DNA from: Aphrophora alni
Taxonomy: Eukaryota; Arthropoda; Insecta; Hemiptera; Aphrophoridae
Length of the DNA stretch: 64,000 nt
Reading direction: 5' to 3'
Assembly (NCBI GenBank): GCA_963513935.1
Contig: OY740772.1
Coordinates: 13,672,098-13,736,097, forward strand
The notes under the pieces were generated by a model. That model saw only the letters and a program-made list of their open reading frames with translations, was not told the origin of the DNA and ran no database searches. The position numbers were made by a program, and so were the translations under genes. Each line of letters starts with the position of its first letter. Position 1 is the stretch's first letter. Below, in pieces: positions 45,885 to 60,105 of the stretch.

Positions 45885-48800
45885 AATGCTGTCGCTATGG
45901 CGGCAGTGATTCTCTCTCTCTCTCTCTCTCTCGTATATCGAGGATTTCCTCACTGAAGACAACCTTCTTATCAGAAGAAAAATTCAGTAGGAATCAGACC
46001 AGGGCTTCTTGTCGCTCTATGGCGGCAGTGCTTCTCTCTCGTATATCCAGGATTTCCTCACTGAAGACAATCTTCTTATCAGAAGAAAAATTCAGTAGAA
46101 ATCAGATCAGGACTTCTTGTCACTATGGCGGCAGTAATTCTCTCTCGTATATCCAGGATTTCCTCACTGAAGACAATCTTCTTATCAGAAGAAAAATTCA
46201 GTAGAAATCAGATAAGGACTTCTTGTCACTATGGCGGCAGTAATTCTCTCTCCTATATCCAGGATTTCCTCAGTGAAGACAATCTTCTTAACAGAAGAAA
46301 AAGTCAGTAAGGATCATCTCAATGCTTCTTGTCGCTATGGCGGTAGTTATTCTCTCTCGTATATCCAGGATTTCCTCTGTGAAGACATCCTTCTTACCAG
46401 AAAAAAGTCAGTAGGGATCAGGGATTCTTGTCGCTCTATGGCGGCAGTGATTCTATCTCGTATATCCAGGATTTCCTCAGTGAAGACAATCTTCTTAACA
46501 GAAGAAAAATTCAGTAGGAATCAGACCAGGGATTCTTGTCGCTCTATGGCGGCAATAATTCTCTCTCGTATATCCAGGATTTCCTCACTGAAGACAATCT
46601 TCTTATCAGAAGAAAAATTCAGTAGAAATCAGATCAGGACTTCTTGTCACTATGGCGGCAGTAATTCTCTCTCGTATATCCAGGATTTCCTCACTGAAGA
46701 CAATCTTCTTATCAGAAGAAAAATTCAGTAGAAATCAGATCAGGACTTCTTGTCACTATGGCGGCAGTAATTCTCTCTCGTATATCCAGGATTTCCTCAC
46801 TGAAGACAATCTTCTTATCAGAAGAAAAATTCAGTAGAAATCAGATCAGGACTTCTTGTCACTATGGCGGCAGTAATTCTCTCTCGTATATCCAGGATTT
46901 CCTCACTGAAGACAATCTTCTTATCAGAAGAAAAATTCAGTAGAAATCAGATCAGGACTTCTTGTCACTATGGCGGCAGTAATTCTCTCTCGTATATCCA
47001 GGATTTCCTCACTGAAGACAATCTTCTTATCAGAAAAAAAATTCAGTAGAAATCAGATCAGGACTTCTTGTCACTATGGCGGCAGTAATTCTCTCTCGTA
47101 TATCCAGGATTTCCTCACTGAAGACAATCTTCTTATCAGAAGAAAAATTCAGTAGGAATCAGATCAGGACTTCTTGTCACTATCGCGGCAGTGATTCTCT
47201 CGCTTATATCCAGGATTTCCTCACTGAAGACAATCTTCTTATCAGAAGAAAAATTCAGTAGAAATCAGATCAGGACTTCTTGTCACTATCGCGGCAGTAA
47301 TTCTCTCTCGTATATCCAGGATTTCCTCACTGAAGACAATCTTCTTACCAGAAGAAAAATTCAGTTGGAATCAGACCAGGGCTTCTTGTCACTATGGTGG
47401 CAGTGATTCTCTCTCGTATATCCAGGATTTCCTCAGTGAAGACAATCTTCTTACCAGAAGAAAAATTCAGTAGGAATCAGACCAGGGCTTCTTGTCGCTA
47501 TGGTGGCAGTGATTCTCTCTCGTATATCAAGGATTTCTTCACTGAAGACAATCTTCTTAACAGAAAAAAAGTCAGTAGGGATCAGGGATTCTTGTCGCTC
47601 TATGGTGGCAGTGATTCTCTCTCGTATATCCAGGATTTCCTCAGTGAAGACAATCTTCTTACCAGAAGAAAAATTCAGTAGGAATCAGACCAGGGCTTCT
47701 TGTCGCTATGGTGGCAGTGATTCTCTCTCGTATATCAAGGATTTCTTCACTGAAGACAACCTTCTTAACAGAAAAAAAGTCAGTAGGGATCAGGGATTCT
47801 TGTCGCTCTATGGTGGCAGTGATTCTCTCTCGTATATCCAGGATTTCTTCACTGAAGACAACCTTCTTAACAGAAGAAAAATTCAGTTGGAATCAGACCA
47901 GGGCTTCTTGTCACTATGGCGGCAGTGATTCTCTCTCGTATACCCAGGATTTCCTCAGTGAAGACAATCTTCTTACCAGAAGAAAAATTCAGTAGGAATC
48001 AGACCAGGGCTTCTTGTCGCTATGGTGGCAGTGATTCTCTCTCGTATATCAAGGATTTCTTCACTGAAGACAATCTTCTTAACAGAAAAAAAGTCAGTAG
48101 GGATCAGGGATTCTTGTCGCTCTATGGCGGCAGTGATTCTCTCTCGTATATCCAGGAGTTCCTCACTGAAGACAATCTTCTTAACAGAAGAAAAATTCAG
48201 TAGGAATCAGACCAGGGCTTCTTGTACCTCTATGGCGGCAGTGATTCTCTCTCGTATATCCAGGAGTTCCTCACTGAAGACAATCTTCTTAACAGAAGAA
48301 AAATTCAGTAGGAATCAGACCAGGGCTTCTTGTCGCTCTATGGCGGCAGTGATTCTCTCTCGTATATCCAGGAGTTCCTCACTGAAGACAATCTTCTTAA
48401 CAGAAGAAAAATTCAGTAGGAATCAGACCAGGGCTTCTTGTAGCTCTATGGCGGCAGTGATTCTCTCTCGTATATCCAGGAGTTCCTCACTGAAGACAAT
48501 CTTCTTAACAGAAGAAAAATTCAGTAGGAATCAGACCAGGGCTTCTTGTCGCTCTATGGCGGCAGTGATTCTCTCTCGTATATCCAGGAGTTCCTCACTG
48601 AAGACAATCTTCTTAACAGAAGAAAAATTCAGTAGGAATCAGACCAGGGCTTCTTGTAGCTCTATGGCGGCAGTGATTCTCTCTCGTATATCCAGGAGTT
48701 CCTTACTGAAGACAATCTTCTTAACAGAAGAAAAATTCAGTAGGAATCAGACCAGGGCTTCTTGTAGCTCTATGGCGGCAGTGATTCTCTCTCGTATATC

Positions 48801-51800
48801 CAGGATTTCCTCACTGAAGACAATCTTCTTAACAGAAGAAAAATTCAGTAGGAATCAGACCAGGGCTTCTTGTCGCTCTATGGCGGTAGTGATTCTCTCT
48901 CGTATATCCAGGATTTCCTCAGTGAAGACAATCTTCTTATCAGAAGAAAAATTCAGTAGGAATCAGACCAGGGATTCTTGTCGCTCTATGGCGGCAATGA
49001 TTCTCTCTCGTATATCCAGGAGTTCCTCACTGAAGACAATTTTCCTAACAGAAGAAAAATTCAGTAGGAATCAGACCAGGGATTCTTGTAGCTCTATGGC
49101 GGCAGTGATTCTCTCTCGTATATCCAGGAGTTCCTCACTGAAGACAATCTTCTTAACAGAAGAAAAATTCAGTAGGAATCAGACCAGGGCTTCTTGTAGC
49201 TCTGTGGTGGCAGTGATTCTCTCTCGTATATCCAGGATTTCCTCAGTGAAGACAATCTTCTTACCAGAAGAAAAATTCAGTAGGAATCAGACCAGGGCTT
49301 CTTGTCGCTATGGTGGCAGTGATTCTCTCTCGTATATCAAGGATTTCTTCACTGAAGACAACCTTCTTAACAGAAAAAAAGTCAGTAGGGATCAGGGATT
49401 CTTGTCGCTCTATGGCGGCAGTGATTCTCTCTCGTATATCCAGGAGTTCCTCACTGAAGACAATCTTCTTAACAGAAGAAAAATTCAGTAGGAATCAGAC
49501 CAGGGCTTCTTGTAGCTCTATGGCGGCAGTGATTCTCTCTCGTATATCCAGGATTTCCTCACTGAAGACAATCTTCTTAACAGAAGAAAATGTCAGTAAG
49601 GATCATCTCAATGCTTCTTGTCGCTATGGCGGTAGTGATTCTCTCTCGTATATCCAGGATTTCCTCAGTGAAGACAATCTTCTTATCAGAAGAAAAATTC
49701 AGTAGGAATCAGACCAGGGATTCTTGTCGCTCTATGGCGGCAATGATTCTCTCTCGTATATCCAGGAGTTCCTCACTGAAGACAATTTTCCTAACAGAAG
49801 AAAAATTCAGTAGGAATCAGACTAGGGATTCTTGTAGCTCTATGGTGGCAGTGATTCTCTCTCGTATATCCAGGAGTTCCTCACTGAAGACAATCTTCTT
49901 AACAGAAGAAAAATTCAGTAGGAATCAGACCAGGGCTTCTTGTAGCTCTATGGTGGCAGTGATTCTCTCTCGTATATCCAGGATTTCCTCACTGAAGACA
50001 ATCTTCTTAACAGAAGAAAAATTCAGTAGGAATCAGACCAGGGCTTCTTGTAGCTCTATGGTGGCAGTGATTCTCTCTCGTATATCCAGGATTTCCTCAG
50101 TGAAGACAATCTTCTTACCAGAAGAAAAATTCAGTAGGAATCAGACCAGGGCTTCTTGTCGCTATGGTGGCAGTGATTCTCTCTCGTATATCAAGGATTT
50201 CTTCACTGAAGACAACCTTCTTAACAGAAAAAAAGTCAGTGGGGATCAGGGATTCTTGTAGCTCTATGGCGGCAGTGATTCTCTCTCGTATATCCAGGAG
50301 TTCCTCACTGAAGACAATCTTCTTAACAGAAGAAAAATTCAGTAGGAATCAGACCAGGGCTTCTTGTAGCTCTATGGTGGCAGTGATTCTCTCTCGTATA
50401 TCCAGGATTTCCTCAGTGAAGACAATCTTCTTACCAGAAGAAAAATTCAGTAGGAATCAGACCAGGGCTTCTTGTCGCTATGGTGGCAGTGATTCTCTCT
50501 CGTATATCAAGGATTTCTTCACTGAAGACAACCTTCTTAACAGAAAAAAAGTCAGTGGGGATCAGGGATTCTTGTAGCTCTATGGCGGCAGTGATTCTCT
50601 CTCGTATATCCAGGAGTTCCTCACTGAAGACAATCTTCTTAACAGAAGAAAAATTCAGTAGGAATCAGACCAGGGCTTCTTGTAGCTCTATGGTGGCAGT
50701 GATTCTCTCTCGTATATCCAGGATTTCCTCAGTGAAGACAATCTTCTTACCAGAAGAAAAATTCAGTAGGAATCAGACCAGGGCTTCTTGTCGCTATGGT
50801 GGCAGTGATTCTCTCTCGTATATCAAGGATTTCTTCACTGAAGACAACCTTCTTAACAGAAAAAAAGTCAGTAGGGATCAGGGATTCTTGTCGCTCTATG
50901 GTGGCAGTGATTCTCTCTCTTATATCCAGGATTTCCTCAGTGAAGACAATCTTCTTAACAGAAGAAAAATTCAGTAGGAATCAGATCAGGACTTCTTGTC
51001 GCTATCGCGGCAGTGATTCTCTCTCGTATATCCAGGATTTCCTCAGTGAAGACAATCTTCTTATCAGAAGAAAAATTCAGTAGGAATCAGACCAGGGATT
51101 CTTGTCGCTATGGCGGCAGTGATTCTCTCTCGTATATCCAGGATTTCCTCACTGAAGACAATCTTCTTAACAGAAGAAAATGTCAGTAAGGATCATCTCA
51201 ATGCTTCTTGTCGCTATGGCGGTAGTGATTCTCTCTCGTATATCCAGGATTTCCTCAGTGAAGACAATCTTCTTATCAGAAGAAAAATTCAGTAGGAATC
51301 AGACCAGGGATTCTTGTCGCTATGGCGGCAGTGATTCTCTCTCGTATATCCAGGATTTCCTCACTGAAGACAATCTTCTTAACAGAAGAAAATGTCAGTA
51401 AGGATCATCTCAATGCTTCTTGTCGCTATGGCGGTAGTGATTCTCTCTCGTATATCCAGGATTTCCTCAGTGAAGACAATCTTCTTATCAGAAGAAAAAT
51501 TCAGTAGGAATCAGACCAGGGCTTCTTGTCGCTATGGCGGCTGTGATTCTCTCTCGTATATCCAGGATTTCCTCAGTGAAGACAATCTTCTTATCAGAAG
51601 AAAAATTTAGTAGAAATCAGACCAGGGCTTCTTGTCGCTATGGCGGCAGTAATTCTCTCTCGTATATCCAGGATTTCCTCACTGAAGACAATCTTCTTAA
51701 CAGAAGAAAATGTCAGTAAGGATCATCTCAATGCTTCTTGTCACTATGGTGGCAGTGATTCTCTCTCGTATATCCAGGATTTCCTCACTGAATACAATCT

Positions 51801-54800
51801 TCTTAACAGAAGAAAATGTCAGTAAGGATCATCTCAATGCTTCTTGTCACTATGGTGGCAGTGATTCTCTCTCGTATATCCAGGATTTCCTCACTGAAGA
51901 CAATCTTCTTAACAGAAGAAAAATTCAGTAGGAATCAGACCAGGGATTCTTGTCACTATGGCGGTAGTGATTCTCTCTCGTATATCCAGGATTTCCTCAG
52001 TGAAGACAATCTTCTTATCAGTAGAAAAATTCAGTAGGAATCAGACCAGGGATTCTTGTCGCTATGGCGGCAGTGATTCTCTCTCGTATATCCAGGATTT
52101 CCTCACTGAAGACAATCTTCTTAACAGAAGAAAAATTCAGTAGGAATCAGATCAGGACTTCTTGTCACTATGGCGGTAGTGATTCTCTCTCGTATATCCA
52201 GGATTTCCTCAGTGAAGACAATCTTCTTATCAGAAGAAAAATTCAGTAGGAATCAGACCAGGGATTCTTGTCGCTATGGCGGCAGTGATTCTCTCTCGTA
52301 TATCCAGGATTTCCTCACTGAAGACAATCTTCTTAACAGAAGAAAATGTCAGTAAGGATCATCTCAATGCTTCTTGTCGCTATGGCGGTAGTGATTCTCT
52401 CTCGTATATCCAGGATTTCCTCAGTGAAGACAATCTTCTTATCAGAAGAAAAATTCAGTAGGAATCAGACCAGGGCTTCTTGTCGCTATGGCGGCAGTGA
52501 TTCTCTCTCGTATATCCAGGATTTCCTCAGTGAAGACAATCTTCTTATCAGAAGAAAAATTTAGTAGAAATCAGACCAGGGCTTCTTGTCGCTATGGCGG
52601 CAGTAATTCTCTCTCGTATATCCAGGATTTCCTCACTGAAGACAATCTTCTTAACAGAAGAAAATGTCAGTAAGGATCATCTCAATGCTTCTTGTCACTA
52701 TGGTGGCAGTGATTCTCTCTCGTATATCCAGGATTTCCTCACTGAAGACAATCTTCTTAACAGAAGAAAATGTCAGTAAGGATCATCTCAATGCTTCTTG
52801 TCACTATGGTGGCAGTGATTCTCTCTCGTATATCCAGGATTTCCTCACTGAAGACAATCTTCTTAACAGAAGAAAATGTCAGTAAGGATCATCTCAATGC
52901 TTCTTGTCACTATGGTGGCAGTGATTCTCTCTCGTATATCCAGGATTTCCTCACTGAAGACAATCTTCTTAACAGAAGAAAATGTCAGTAAGGATCATCT
53001 CAATGCTTCTTGTCACTATGGTGGCAGTGATTCTCTCTCGTATATCCAGGATTTCCTCACTGAAGACAATCTTCTTAACAGAAGAAAATGTCAGTAAGGA
53101 TCATCTCAATGCTTCTTGTCACTATGGTGGCAGTAATTCTCTCTCGTATATCCAGGATTTCCTCACTGAAGACAATCTTCTTAACAGAAGAAAATGTCAG
53201 TAAGGATCATCTCAATGCTTCTTGTCACTATGGTGGCAGTGATTCTCTCTCGTATATCCAGGATTTCCTCACTGAAGACAATCTTCTTAACAGAAGAAAA
53301 TGTCAGTAAGGATCATCTCAATGCTTCTTGTCACTATGGTGGCAGTAATTCTCTCTCGTATATCCAGGATTTCCTCACTGAAGACAATCTTCTTAACAGA
53401 AGAAAATGTCAGTAAGGATCATCTCAATGCTTCTTGTCACTATGGTGGCAGTGATTCTCTCTCGTATATCCAGGATTTCCTCACTGAAGACAATCTTCTT
53501 AACAGAAGAAAATGTCAGTAAGGATCATCTCAATGCTTCTTGTCACTATGGTAGCAGTAATTCTCTCTCGTATATCCAGGATTTCCTCACTGAAGACAAT
53601 CTTCTTAACAGAAGAAAATGTCAGTAAGGATCATCTCAATGCTTCTTGTCACTATGGTGGCAGTAATTCTCTCTCGTATATCCAGGATTTCCTCACTGAA
53701 GACAATCTTCTTAACAGAAGAAAATGTCAGTAAGGATCATCTCAATGCTTCTTGTCACTATGGTGGCAGTGATTCTCTCTCGTATATCCAGGATTTCCTC
53801 ACTGAAGACAATCTTCTTAACAGAAGAAAATGTCAGTAAGGATCATCTCAATGCTTCTTGTCACTATGGTGGCAGTAATTCTCTCTCGTATATCCAGGAT
53901 TTCCTCAGTGAAGACAATCTTCTTATCAGAAGAAAAATTCAGTAGAAATCAGACCAGGGCTTCTTGTCGCTATGGTGGCAGTGATTCTCTCTCGTATATC
54001 CAGGATTTCCTCACTGAAGACAATCTTCTTATCAGAAGAAAAATTCAGTAGAAATCAGACCAGGGCTTCTTGTCGCTATGGTGGCAGTGATTCTCTCTCG
54101 TATATCCAGGATTTCCTCACTGAAGACAATCTTCTTAACAGAAGAAAAATTCAGTAGGAATCAGACTAGGGATTCTTGTCGCTCTATGGTGGCAGTGATT
54201 CTCTCTCGTATATCCAGGATTTCCTCACTGAAGACAATCTTCTTATCAGAAGAAAAATTCAGTAGGAATCAGACCAGGGCTTCTTGTCGCTATGGCGGCA
54301 GTGATTCTCTCTCGTATATCCAGGATTTCCTCAGTGAAGACAATCTTCTTATCAGAAGAAAAATTCAGTAGGAATCAGACCAGGGCTTCTTGTCACTATG
54401 GCGGTAGTGATTCTCTCTCGTATATCCAGGATTTCCTCAGTGAAGACAATCTTCTTATCAGAAGAAAAATTCAGTAGGAATCAGACTAGGGATTCTTGTC
54501 GCTCTATGGCGGCAGTGATTCTCTCTCGTATATCCAGGAGTTCCTCAGTGAAGACATTCTTCTTAACAGAAGAAAAAGTCAGTAAGGATCAGACCAGGGC
54601 TTCTTGTCGCTATGGTGGCAGTGATTCTCTCTTGTATATCAAGGATTTTCCCAGTGAAGAAAATATTCTTAACAGAAGAAAAAGTCAGTAGGGATCAGAT
54701 CAGGGCTTCATGTCGCTATGGCGGTAGTGATTCTCTCGTATTTCCAGGATTTCCTTAGTGAAGACAGTGTTCTTAACAGAAAGAAAAATCAGTATGGATC

Positions 54801-54880
54801 AGGGCTTCTTATCGCTATGAGGGCAGTGATTCTCTCGTAGATCCAGGATTTCCTCAGTGAAGACAATGTTCTAATAGAAG
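45885..54880 (+). repeat. Satellite-like tandem array A, about 85 units of mostly 106 bp
   Basis: The consensus unit contains ATGGCGGCAGTGATTCTC, TCTCGTATATCCAGGATTTC, TCACTGAAGACAATCTTCTT, AACAGAAGAAAAATTCAGTA and GGAATCAGACCAGGGCTTCT. Most units are 106 bp, but 102-bp units (shortened near AAAAAAAGTCAGTAGGGATC) and 108-bp units (GCTCTATGG in place of GCTATGG) occur in blocks. Each unit can form small hairpins (GAAGA-CAA-TCTTC; CTTCT-TAACA-GAAG). The first unit has an expanded (TC)n and the last few units are degenerate, as expected at array edges. No homology to a known satellite can be judged from here. Confidence 0.97.
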
Positions 54881-55150
54881 GAAGTAGAGTGTGCGATACT
54901 TTAGGACAAGATTGGAGTGGGGGATGGTGGGGGCTGGTGGGAGGTGTGGTTGGGCGGGGTTATTGATGGTGGGAGGTTTGGGGGTGGATGGATGTTAGAT
55001 TGTGGGAGGTGTGGTTGTGGATGGTGGGAGGTATGGTGGGAGATGGTGGGAGGTGTGGTGGGATGTGTTGTGGGAGATGATGGGAGGTGTTGTGGGAGTG
55101 GCTGGGGTGTTTGGGTGTGGTGGGAGATGGTGGAAGCTGTAGTGGGAGTG
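54881..55150 (+). repeat. G-rich strand-asymmetric tract with G-quadruplex potential
   Basis: The plus strand is dominated by GGTGGGAGGTGTGGTTG-like and GGGATGGTGGGA-like pieces, with closely spaced G-runs of three to five, especially at 54,918-54,985. It marks the left edge of the unique module and separates it from the degenerate last units of array A. The open frame through it merely encodes Gly/Trp/Val-rich low complexity. Confidence 0.85.
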
Positions 55151-55204
55151 GTTGGATCTTGACGTCACATTTACACTTTGACGATAGTGACGTGAGACCC
55201 TTTA

Positions 55205-56359
55205 GTGTGTTACCCGAAGGCGATCACACTACCGACTGAGCAATCGTGTACTAGCCGAGTAGTCCCTCCACAGGACCCCCAACACCTTCCACCAGAGTGC
55301 ACCACCATAGGTTTTACACAGAATTATATGCCTGTACATTTCGTAGAAGTTTGGACACGTAACCCTTACCCTAAGACGTACCGAGTTTTTCGCGGTCGCG
55401 AAGTACAAAGAAAACTATAATACAATTGTTAACAACGACAAGTCTGTTGGGATAGTTTGCCTAACCTGGATTACTCCTACTGGTGCAAGAGTAAAAATCT
55501 ACAACAAGTTCGTGTGCCAGATTACGAGTCTTGGCGTTAACAAACAAATTGGTAACCACATTGTGGATTTTGTCAACTGTCCAGACTCCAGGTTAAGACA
55601 GAGGTTTCTGTCCCCACTGGGTAAGGACCATGGCATTACAAGATTGGAGGTTACGATCTACAACGGTAGCGGCGACCTTCCTCTGGACAACTGTGTAATG
55701 CTCCTGGAAGACAGCTTAATTTCTTTCCAGGAAACCCAGTTTTACTCTGTTGCCATCCCTAAAATGTGGACGAAATTAGCTGACAGTCTCCAGAACAGTT
55801 GCTGTGTAGTGTACAATAATCTTTTACAATATGCCTACTGGGGAAACAGTAACACGAAGAAGTTAACCGGAGTGCAACTTACTTTACCAAGCGACCAAGA
55901 ACCAGAGGAAAAAAAAAATTAATTACATACTATCTTGCATTTAGTTTTAACTATTTGCCTGTAAATTACTTGGAGATTGTGGAAGATGTCGCTAATAAAG
56001 AACATGTTAGTGTGGTGCAAAAATGCTACATTAAGAGTGGCGAGACATTCTTCTCGAAATCTAGTACTGCTTTCTCGGCGATTTGTAAAGATGTAAGCCT
56101 CGAGAACTGTGGGATGGTTCCAACGAGTAATATTAGTCCACAGATTTTAAGGAAGAGAACGAATGTTACAAACAGGCTACAACCCTACAGTATTAAGGAG
56201 ACAGAACCATTCTCCACCGTTTACCTACTGTCTGCGAAGAAACGAAAACTGGAACTGGAAGAAATTGACTTAAAACGGAGAAAATTGGAATACATGGAAC
56301 ATGCTGCTTCCTTTAAAAGAGGAATACAACGAAATGCAGGAGAAAGAGAAAATTATTAG
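55205..56359 (+). pseudogene. Module gene 1: unrecognised protein, possibly replication-related, broken by two frameshifts
   Basis: Three open segments in different frames (to 55,420; about 55,396-55,921; about 55,920-56,359) appear to be one gene of roughly 380 codons. The first carries HFVEVWTRNPYPKTY, the second VKIYNKFV and HGITRLEVTIYN, the third a highly charged KKRKLELEEIDLKRRKLEY stretch likely to form a coiled coil, near the C-terminus. The transitions fall at a T5 run (55,386-55,390) and an A10 run (55,909-55,918). No ATG opens the first segment, so the true start may be missing or upstream. The YNKF and RLEVT blocks loosely recall replication-initiator proteins of small replicons, but I cannot assign a family. 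It is intronless and richer in GC than the flanks. Confidence 0.6.
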
Positions 56360-56376
56360 GGGGGGCAAGAGAGAGG

Positions 56377-56659
56377 ATGGGCTCATATTTTAACAAGACT
56401 TGGAAGAATTTAGATATACATGCAGACTACCAGGTTTCCGCATTAACCGTTAACACTAAAGCGATATATGCCTTTGTTGGAATACTTGCAGAAAGAGATG
56501 GGAATAAAAGGGTTTACTTTTAAAGGAAAGTACAAATCGTGGCTAATGGAGGTCTACAACGACAAACAAAATTTAACAAAAGAGGGGTTTGTTTTAACCT
56601 CCAACAATGACCTGGACATTGTGCATTTAGCGACAGAAGAAACAATTTTTACATTATGA
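56377..56659 (+). pseudogene. Module gene 2: small unknown protein, one frameshift
   Basis: An ATG at 56,377, only 17 bp after the gene 1 stop, opens a frame beginning MGSYFNKTWKNLDIHADYQV. Near 56,462 the reading passes to another frame (open to 56,659) with PLLEYLQKEMGIKGFTFKGK and DLDIVHLATEETIFTL. The combined product would be about 93 residues. I recognise no domain. The break lies at GATATATG and not at a long homopolymer. Its stop overlaps the start of gene 3. Confidence 0.55.
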
Positions 56660-57087
56660 CGAATGGTCTTACCAGTTTTAATAATCATTCCTTTGCGAAG
56701 ATAGAGCATCTTAAGCTACTAACAGATGCTTGGAAAAACCCAGAAGACTTCCCCTACAACCAGGACGAAGTAGAGCAAATATCCGCCTTTGGCATGCAAG
56801 AAATAAAAAGCAAAGTTATTCCAAGAAAGTGTCGTCGGCTGGAAGAAGGGACAAAATTAGTAGTGTGTGGAATCAAACAAATTGATTACAGACATAAGAA
56901 TCATAAGATCCGTTATATTTTGCAGTTCCAAAATCTAGATGAATTGTATGTTTCGAATTATTGTTTAGAAAGAGAAATAAAAGAGCTAAATGTAGATTTA
57001 AACTATAAATTTAATGTTAAATTGGACAAGATAAAAACCACTGCAATTAAGCACAAAGAAAGAGTTGTTTTCTGTGCTTGTAATTAA
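56656..57087 (+). CDS. Module gene 3: unknown 143-residue protein, intact
   Basis: An intact ATG-to-TAA frame starts inside the preceding stop (ATGA overlap). The protein begins MTNGLTSFNNHSFAKIEHL. Its middle holds IPRKCRRLEEGTKLVVCGIK, followed by RYILQFQNLDELYVSNYCL and a lysine-rich C-terminus ending VVFCACN. The alternation of short hydrophobic and charged runs from residue 60 on would suit a small beta-rich fold such as an OB-fold, but that is inference. It has no signal peptide or membrane segment and no recognised family. A/T-rich sequence with ATAAATAAATAAATG follows the stop and could serve as a polyadenylation region. Confidence 0.72.
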   Translation: MTNGLTSFNNHSFAKIEHLKLLTDAWKNPEDFPYNQDEVEQISAFGMQEIKSKVIPRKCRRLEEGTKLVVCGIKQIDYRHKNHKIRYILQFQNLDELYVSNYCLEREIKELNVDLNYKFNVKLDKIKTTAIKHKERVVFCACN

Positions 57088-57272
57088 AAATAAATAAATA
57101 AATGTTTTAAAATCATATTCTTTGTAATTTGTTACCTCCAATCCACCAAAACTCTTTTTAGTAGAGATGAAGTTATTTGATGTGACCTTGGATTGGTAAC
57201 CGAAACGATGTAGTCGAAAACGACGCGACCCCCCCTTTTTTCTTTTTTACATATATGACGTCGTAACGTTTG

Positions 57273-57338
57273 TTAGGAACCGATTTACCAACCCGTAGAT
57301 ACCATTACCAAGTTTTGGTTGGTAAATCGGTTGCTAAT
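57273..57338. repeat. Hairpin-forming inverted repeat at the right edge of the module
   Basis: AACCGATTTACCAACC at 57,278 is matched by its reverse complement at 57,317, extending to about 20 bp per arm with one mismatch; the spacer is about 22 bp. It lies between module gene 3 and the first unit of array B. It could be a terminal structure, a replication-origin-type stem loop or a transcription end structure; nothing here decides. Confidence 0.85.
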
Positions 57339-57360
57339 AGTCTATTTTAAAGTATAATCT

Positions 57361-60105
57361 TCTTGCTATGGCGGCAGTGATTCTCTCTCGTATATCCTGG
57401 ATTTCCTCACTGAAGACAATGTTCTTAACAGAAGAAAAAGTCAGTAGGGATCAGGGCTTCTTGTCACTATGGCGGCAGTGATTCTCTCTCGTATATCCTG
57501 GATTTCCTCACTGAAGACAATGTTCTTAACAGAAGAAAAAGTCAGTAGGGATCAGGGCTTCTTGTCACTATGGTGGCAGTGATTCTCTCTCGTATATCCT
57601 GGATTTCCTCACTGAAGACAATGTTCTTAACAGAAGAAAAAGTCAGTAGGGATCAGGGCTTCTTGTCACTATGGTGGCAGTGATTCTCTCTCGTATATCC
57701 TGGATTTCCTCACTGAAGACAATGTTCTTAACAGAAGAAAAAGTCAGTAGGGATCAGGGCTTCTTGTCACTATGGTGGCAGTGATTCTCTCTCGTATATC
57801 CTGGATTTCCTCACTGAAGACAATGTTCTTAACAGAAGAAAAAGTCAGTAGGGATCAGGGCTTCTTGTCACTATGGTGGCAGTGATTCTCTCTCGTATAT
57901 CCAGGATTTCCTTAGTGAAGACAATCTTCTTAACAGAAGAAAAAGTCAGTAGGGATCAGGGCTTCTTGTCACTATGGTGGCAGTGATTCTCTCTCGTATA
58001 TCCAGGATTTCCTTAGTGAAGACAATCTTCTTAACAGAAGAAAAAGTCAGTAGGGATCAGGGCTTCTTGTCACTATGGTGGCAGTGATTCTCTCTCGTAT
58101 ATCCAGGATTTCCTTAGTGAAGACAATCTTCTTAACAGAAGAAAAAGTCAGTAGGGATCAGGGCTTCTTGTCACTATGGTGGCAGTGATTCTCTCTCGTA
58201 TATCCTGGATTTCCTCACTGAAGACAATGTTCTTAACAGAAGAAAAAGTCAGTAGGGATCAGGGCTTCTTGTCACTATGGCGGCAGTGATTCTCTCTCGT
58301 ATATCCTGGATTTCCTCACTGAAGACAATGTTCTTAACAGAAGAAAAAGTCAGTAGGGATCAGGGCTTCTTGTCACTATGGTGGCAGTGATTCTCTCTCG
58401 TATATCCTGGATTTCCTCACTGAAGACAATGTTCTTAACAGAAGAAAAAGTCAGTAGGGATCAGGGCTTCTTGTCACTATGGTGGCAGTGATTCTCTCTC
58501 GTATATCCTGGATTTCCTCACTGAAGACAATGTTCTTAACAGAAGAAAAAGTCAGTAGGGATCAGGGCTTCTTGTCACTATGGTGGCAGTGATTCTCTCT
58601 CGTATATCCTGGATTTCCTCACTGAAGACAATGTTCTTAACAGAAGAAAAAGTCAGTAGGGATCAGGGCTTCTTGTCACTATGGTGGCAGTGATTCTCTC
58701 TCGTATATCCTGGATTTCCTCACTGAAGACAATGTTCTTAACAGAAGAAAAAGTCAGTAGGGATCAGGGCTTCTTGTCACTATGGTGGCAGTGATTCTCT
58801 CTCGTATATCCAGGATTTCCTTAGTGAAGACAATCTTCTTAACAGAAGAAAAAGTCAGTAGGGATCAGGGCTTCTTGTCACTATGGTGGCAGTGATTCTC
58901 TCTCGTATATCCAGGATTTCCTTAGTGAAGACAATCTTCTTAACAGAAGAAAAAGTCAGTAGGGATCAGGGCTTCTTGTCACTATGGTGGCAGTGATTCT
59001 CTCTCGTATATCCAGGATTTCCTTAGTGAAGACAATCTTCTTAACAGAAGAAAAAGTCAGTAGGGATCAGGGCTTCTTGTCACTATGGTGGCAGTGATTC
59101 TCTCTCGTATATCCAGGATTTCCTTAGTGAAGACAATCTTCTTAACAGAAGAAAAAGTCAGTAGGGATCAGGGCTTCTTGTCACTATGGTGGCAGTGATT
59201 CTCTCTCGTATATCCAGGATTTCCTTAGTGAAGACAATCTTCTTAACAGAAGAAAAAGTCAGTAGGGATCAGGGCTTCTTGTCACTATGGTGGCAGTGAT
59301 TCTCTCTCGTATATCCAGGATTTCCTTAGTGAAGACAATCTTCTTAACAGAAGAAAAAGTCAGTAGGGATCAGGGCTTCTTGTCACTATGGTGGCAGTGA
59401 TTCTCTCTCGTATATCCAGGATTTCCTTAGTGAAGACAATCTTCTTAACAGAAGAAAAAGTCAGTAGGGATCAGGGCTTCTTGTCACTATGGTGGCAGTG
59501 ATTCTCTCTCGTATATCCAGGATTTCCTTAGTGAAGACAATCTTCTTAACAGAAGAAAAAGTCAGTAGGGATCAGGGCTTCTTGTCACTATGGTGGCAGT
59601 GATTCTCTCTCGTATATCCAGGATTTCCTTAGTGAAGACAATCTTCTTAACAGAAGAAAAAGTCAGTAGGGATCAGGGCTTCTTGTCACTATGGTGGCAG
59701 TGATTCTCTCTCGTATATCCAGGATTTCCTTAGTGAAGACAATCTTCTTAACAGAAGAAAAAGTCAGTAGGGATCAGGGCTTCTTGTCACTATGGTGGCA
59801 GTGATTCTCTCTCGTATATCCAGGATTTCCTTAGTGAAGACAATCTTCTTAACAGAAGAAAAAGTCAGTAGGGATCAGGGCTTCTTGTCACTATGGTGGC
59901 AGTGATTCTCTCTCGTATATCCAGGATTTCCTTAGTGAAGACAATCTTCTTAACAGAAGAAAAAGTCAGTAGGGATCAGGGCTTCTTGTCACTATGGTGG
60001 CAGTGATTCTCTCTCGTATATCCAGGATTTCCTTAGTGAAGACAATCTTCTTAACAGAAGAAAAAGTCAGTAGGGATCAGGGTTTCTTGTCGCTATGGCG
60101 GCACC
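57361..60105 (+). repeat. Tandem array B, about 27 units of 101 bp
   Basis: The units are clearly related to array A (ATGGTGGCAGTGATTCTC, TCTCGTATATCC, AAGAAAAAGTCAGTAGGGAT) but are 101 bp long because the GAATCAGACC segment is shortened to GATC. Two variants occur in uniform blocks: one with CCTGGATTTCCTCACTG and AATGTTCTT, the other with CCAGGATTTCCTTAGTG and AATCTTCTT. The order is about five of the first, three of the second, six of the first, then thirteen of the second. Copies within a block are essentially identical, indicating recent amplification. Confidence 0.96.

Follow-up and report, generated by a model that had tools for sequence, protein, structure and literature searches.

The window analysed here is a 64,000-nucleotide stretch of the genome of the hemipteran Aphrophora alni (contig OY740772.1, positions 13,672,098 to 13,736,097), and our subject is the segment that lies between its two satellite arrays, at 54881-57365. 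In our favoured explanation, which we consider probable, this segment is the relic of an intronless gene together with the end of a mobile element, and those of its relatives that are intact likely code for a nicking replication initiator resembling the Rep_trans family (hereafter Rep), probably integrated by the machinery of Polinton (Maverick) virus-like transposons.

An initial annotation had described three closely packed genes, and the open reading frame (ORF) list does contain three frames on one strand, 136, 134 and 143 amino acids (aa) long. The count of three was wrong, since a single intact 778-aa ORF from the same genome spans all three frames, its residues 218-778 matching window positions 55401-57084 by tblastn. 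The pieces, all on the plus strand, lie in frame 3 at 55401-55913 (residues 218-388, retaining the predicted catalytic Tyr and R-x-E motifs), in frame 2 at 55910-56656 (best alignment to residues 386-635) and in frame 1 at 56338-57084 (best alignment to residues 529-778, which in a homologue's model form the OB-fold region). At the DNA level, 55402-57347 shares 93.6% identity with an intact copy. The window copy lacks the first 217 codons and, because both N-terminal Asp motifs fall within them, two of the four predicted active-site groups as well. Judged from its sequence, 55401-57084 is what remains of one intronless gene after loss of its 5' part and breaks in its frame. That the pieces are fragments of an intact ORF explains why none of the three gave a credible Pfam or PHROG match; weak matches to Mga, DUF7893, histone and similar families were judged to be noise, and profile searches with the pieces found no PolB, integrase or double-jelly-roll (DJR) capsid match. 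A plasmid or phage origin was considered and set aside, as no relative was found in viral_contigs or in the prokaryote genome_contigs at the search sensitivity used. Nor is this an ordinary host gene with introns, the finding that the initial annotation had named as speaking against its own reading: the intact gene is intronless and multicopy.

The gene interior is joined directly to a 519-bp sequence at 54883-55401 (no strand assigned), which starts 5'-AGTAGAGTGTG and whose first bases, AGTAGAG, set the left boundary of the mobile sequence at 54883. This sequence is repeated genome-wide (60 matches, with 40 of 1270 candidates scored), including convergent pairs such as those on C17 (about 10.9 kb apart) and C1 (9.1 kb apart), and its first 11 bases are identical to an end in locus L022. 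We read it as a putative element end lying outside the gene. The right terminus of the window copy was not found, so no target duplication is readable there.

Intact relatives and their Polinton-type ends

When the window's own genome (G000, 1.70 Gb) was searched at the DNA level, near relatives turned up at many places, with all or part of 55402-57348 in common at about 93-96% identity. Copies such as L011 hold a single stop-to-stop frame of 786 aa, with a protein of 778 aa. Among the best 58 of 1207 candidates, those scored at the protein level, 57 are stop-free and all are at least 98% identical to the query protein; 44 of the 58 are arranged as 22 inverted pairs, with 0.8-3.3 kb between the two ORFs in 21 of the 22, and none has a same-strand neighbour copy within 25 kb.

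The outer limits of such pairs could be read at C13, within 48.958-48.971 Mb, where mirror symmetry extends over 12.3 kb between the termini AGTAGAGATTGGG...CCCAATCTCTACT and CAAGTT flanks both sides. Searched genome-wide, the C13 terminus returned 28 ends, forming 13 convergent pairs (1.8-23.2 kb apart) and two single ends, with no control matches, and a looser pattern returned 187 matches against one in the control. A perfect 6-bp target duplication was present at all 13 end pairs, compared with none of 132 non-partner combinations, and the inverted ends of these elements read 5'-AGTAGAG...CTCTACT-3'. Rep inverted pairs are located inside two of the 13 (C13 and C6:82.54 Mb, the latter within 82.536-82.550 Mb), tying two of the 22 Rep pairs to termini; two of the remaining 11 end pairs were sampled inside. 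These termini, again with a perfect duplication of 6 bp, also bound a 1.8-kb element at C3:6912212-6914009, too short for a 778-codon gene and therefore probably a non-autonomous derivative.

Both features recall Polintons, for which the excerpted text of PMC8097293 gives 6-bp target duplications and AGT/AG-type termini, the vertebrate motifs being (AGT)2 or (AG)3. The elements here share the 6-bp duplications (at every one of the 13 end pairs, of which two are known to bear the gene) and AG-type inverted termini, AGTAGAG being similar, not identical, to the vertebrate motifs, and PolB, a chromodomain protein and a DJR capsid occur at related loci. At C10:47.791-47.814 Mb, a 22.3-kb element with the same ends encodes a DJR capsid domain (PF21738, E 1e-68). 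At C5:41.137-41.159 Mb, a locus of which the interior only was read, a PF03175 polymerase (1381-aa frame) is enclosed by two Rep copies that have (GGTTA)n and mirror each other in their 3' regions; a chromodomain protein (E 5e-9) also lies between the Rep arms, its upstream part being recognised by eye, rather than by profile, as a Polinton integrase tail. The elements differ from Polintons in that gene-bearing copies here are mainly core-less mirror-image pairs, and in that the vertebrate map in the excerpt of PMC8097293 (PolB, ATPase, PM, PZ, protease, capsid genes, PW, integrase and accessory genes) has no Rep-like gene. The elements likely move with help from Polintons, and the earlier suggestion of a virus-like element inserted in satellite came close: relatives have Polinton-type termini and 6-bp duplications and one pair surrounds PolB, the window segment itself being a relic.

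A small replicon or transposon of independent origin, which invaded Polinton ends later and for which Polintons are a mere landing place, would account for the gene-bearing unit having its own inverted repeats of about 105 bp and for the short distances between paired ORFs, which leave no room for a Polinton core. We nevertheless regard this origin as unlikely, because the element ends, the 6-bp duplications and the mirrored placement around PolB fit a single integrated design, and all of the few borders read are of the AGTAGAG type.

Matches to Polinton-type PolB (PF03175) also occur in inverted pairs, many some 5-8 kb apart (e.g. C1:51.050-51.057, C4:28.501-28.509 and C3:98.177-98.186 Mb), from which it follows that mirror-image derivatives extend beyond the Rep gene. 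At L072 (C5:86.3265-86.3285 Mb), part of a further element that is 23.2 kb long and has the same ends, there are genes for a matrixin metallopeptidase (PF00413, E 2e-26) and for a protein matching T7 tail fibres and YadA stalks, unusual contents for a Polinton.

The predicted protein and known replication initiators

A residue set of D / D-x-T-x-D / K-Y-K / R-E, comprising D68, D194, Y255 and E304 in the numbering of homologue P0006, is present in 36 of 37 homologues. It agrees in order, spacing and strand with the Rep_trans residues given in the excerpt of PMC4797284, a comparison made along the chain and not by superposed coordinates. In the predicted fold, whose scores are modest, a catalytic domain of the Rep_trans/TBP-like type (about residues 60-342 of P0006) is accompanied by a long helical stretch and by OB folds at the C-terminus. 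As modelled, residue set and fold mirror those of Rep_trans rolling-circle initiators, and the C-terminal OB folds are predicted to bind single-stranded DNA. In the model m234a6503c4c8, residues 568-670 form an OB fold resembling, with low scores, the baculovirus single-strand binding protein LEF-3. Profile matches to ribosomal protein S6 were rejected, being confined to the charged helical stretch at profile positions 464-559.

The excerpts consulted place Rep_trans initiators in bacteria, with a cousin family in archaea (PMC4797284, PMC6499999, PMC13107129). With the former (PF02486; pT181-family RepD/RepDE, RepSTK1 4CIJ and MOBT relaxases), the protein here shares the metal Asp, D-x-x-x-D, basic-x-Tyr-x-Lys and Arg-x-Glu motifs in order and within-motif spacing, as far as the excerpts of PMC4797284 and PMC6499999 go, as well as the predicted TBP-like core and hairpin DNA near the gene. 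It differs in its size of about 780 aa, its C-terminal OB folds and its setting in eukaryotic multicopy genomic elements, and, on the same partial sources, in having T for A and D for R in motif I and 47 residues instead of 21 between the Tyr and the motif IV Arg. Nor is there a Pfam profile match: PF02486 matched neither the L011 ORF nor P0001, P0003 and 10 further proteins, and was absent among the 25 of 37 families listed for 41 members of the homologue set A2. The same situation is described for Rep-Arvir of archaeal viruses and plasmids, whose kinship with Rep_trans is, in the excerpt of PMC13107129, seen only via structure and active site; that family is archaeal and has KHYYM around its Tyr, compared with R-x-K-x-Y-N-K in most sequences here. 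Within the titles and abstract starts listed for the open-licence literature surveyed, we found neither a eukaryotic Rep_trans-like protein nor a Rep-like gene in Polintons, and the sole paper found to contain both Rep_trans and polinton is, as far as its excerpt goes, on gut phages (PMC9502842).

Helitrons and Replitrons are eukaryotic transposons of the HUH type. They and the elements described here would all carry rolling-circle-type initiators in eukaryotic mobile elements, but the protein here has no Pfam helicase match, its elements have target duplications, and, across 27 sequences, none of the invariant or nearly invariant columns is a His, the conserved His-hydrophobic-His metal motif of HUH endonucleases (Helitron, Replitron, CRESS Rep) thus being absent.

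The N-terminal domain could alternatively be a TBP-fold DNA-binding protein that does not nick, e.g. a transcription or telomere-repeat binding factor. TBP is the best structural match for both fold models, the second of which is weak (mean pLDDT 68), and the copies examined have telomere-like (TTAGG)n tracts close to their axes. Against this, the near-invariance of the residue set and its Rep_trans order and within-motif spacing leave the non-nicking alternative rather improbable; we know of no TBP with such a set. One homologue, P0013, is filed under a Candidatus Baumannia cicadellinicola metagenome-assembled genome; it was not found in genome_contigs, and its DNA may come from a leafhopper host and have been binned together with the symbiont's.

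Mirror-image copies and the satellite setting

Among the copies examined closely, the inverted pairs form two subfamilies, one with its mirror axis 5' of the gene and short TTAGG/CCTAA tracts, the other with its axis 3' of the gene and long (GGTTA)n/(AACCT)n tracts. Comparison of copies across the two subfamilies gives a dN of 0.0095 and a dS of 0.033. In L029, of the 3'-axis subfamily, long runs of repeats of about 110 bp (TAACACATTATATAAATATA...) lie between the gene and the outer end in both arms. The idea that (TTAGG)n is the telomere repeat of this assembly gained no support from 10 chromosome-end pieces of 1.2 kb, two of them all N, in which no such array was found, and a reading of the copies as linear chromosomes with telomeres was dropped once the outer termini and target duplications emerged. 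Arm-to-arm ORF divergence was lower than that from the nearest other locus in five of 10 pairs, equal in one and higher in four; not being consistently lower, it neither dates the pairs nor proves a pairing mechanism.

It is very improbable that the palindromes are sequencing or assembly artefacts arising from fold-back reads, as their near-perfect symmetry and the run of N beside one fetched copy (L016) might suggest. The Rep palindromes at C13 and C6:82.54 Mb each run at their two outer ends into unlike host flanks with one 6-bp duplication in common, and the same applies to the other 11 end pairs, of which few were read inside. The two ORF arms are separated by 0-6 substitutions in 10 pairs, and both axis types recur at unrelated loci.

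Around the window segment, the initial annotation had correctly seen one repeat type in two arrays, a G-rich tract on the left and a hairpin on the right. The left array (45925-54880) holds 84.5 copies of a 106-bp unit with 92% matches and the right array (57366-60103) 27.1 copies of a 101-bp unit with 99% matches, neither assigned a strand; their consensus units, each doubled, are 90% identical across 195 columns. The G-rich tract is a minisatellite on the plus strand within the element end (about 54935-55156). The hairpin, at 57273-57337 (no strand assigned), has 21-nt arms that are 95% complementary, with a DNA fold of -19.1 kcal/mol and a z score of -7.0 that none of 200 shuffles equalled; intact copies have GGTTGGTAAATCGGTT-type repeats in a run at this place, and we infer that the hairpin is a candidate replication origin. 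Folding of 55358-55403 was no better than chance in the same DNA test. A 60-bp motif at 57181-57240 (plus strand) recurs beyond the gene in the inverted repeat of intact copies. A TGACGTC motif and a stretch read as tRNA-like (55160-55254, minus strand) align with the C13 element in its end region, and ARAGORN found no tRNA gene in the window; near an element end in L041 (8796-9330), a stretch read as tRNA-like (GGTTCGAATCC, opposite strand) is accompanied by TGACGTCA motifs. The segment had also been described as less AT-rich than its surroundings, which holds against the first 45 kb (GC per kilobase 0.37-0.45 compared with 0.23-0.39) but not against the adjoining arrays (0.39-0.44).

The first proposal, that a compact virus- or plasmid-like module of three genes makes up one genetic unit with the satellite, drew on three frames open on a single strand; it is scarcely credible now that one ORF accounts for all three and the satellite is found at none of 20 other gene-bearing loci (8.5-9.9 kb examined per locus). 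The satellite setting looks incidental, and on the best reading the gene-bearing element lies in or beside the satellite and is not part of it.

A possible mechanism and its meaning

Under the favoured explanation of a Rep_trans-like initiator integrated by Polinton machinery, the protein would nick a hairpin near the element end, such as that at 57273-57337, via Tyr255 (P0006 numbering), and the nick would start strand-displacement copying. Copying round the hairpin, or a template switch, could then yield core-less mirror-image molecules composed of two element ends, which the Polinton integrase might insert in trans. End-duplicated defective genomes of the adenovirus type offer an analogy for such molecules; a limited literature search found no paper on them. 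In the window, an element or its end would have landed in or next to the satellite array and then decayed, with loss of the right terminus and of the gene's first part.

More tentatively, with the balance somewhat against it, these proteins could constitute a third, eukaryotic branch of Rep_trans/Rep-Arvir in animals: an OB-fold Rep in the inverted ends of insect Polintons that adds hairpin or rolling-circle replication beside protein-primed PolB, spawning self-encoding mirror-image satellites that use the Polinton integrase and perhaps the capsid. If so, this kind of initiator would serve mobile elements across all three domains of life, and Polintons would gain an unexpected second replication initiator. 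The mirror-image elements would also allow the question of how long palindromes and Polinton satellites arise to be tested in a genome where near-identical open copies are numerous.
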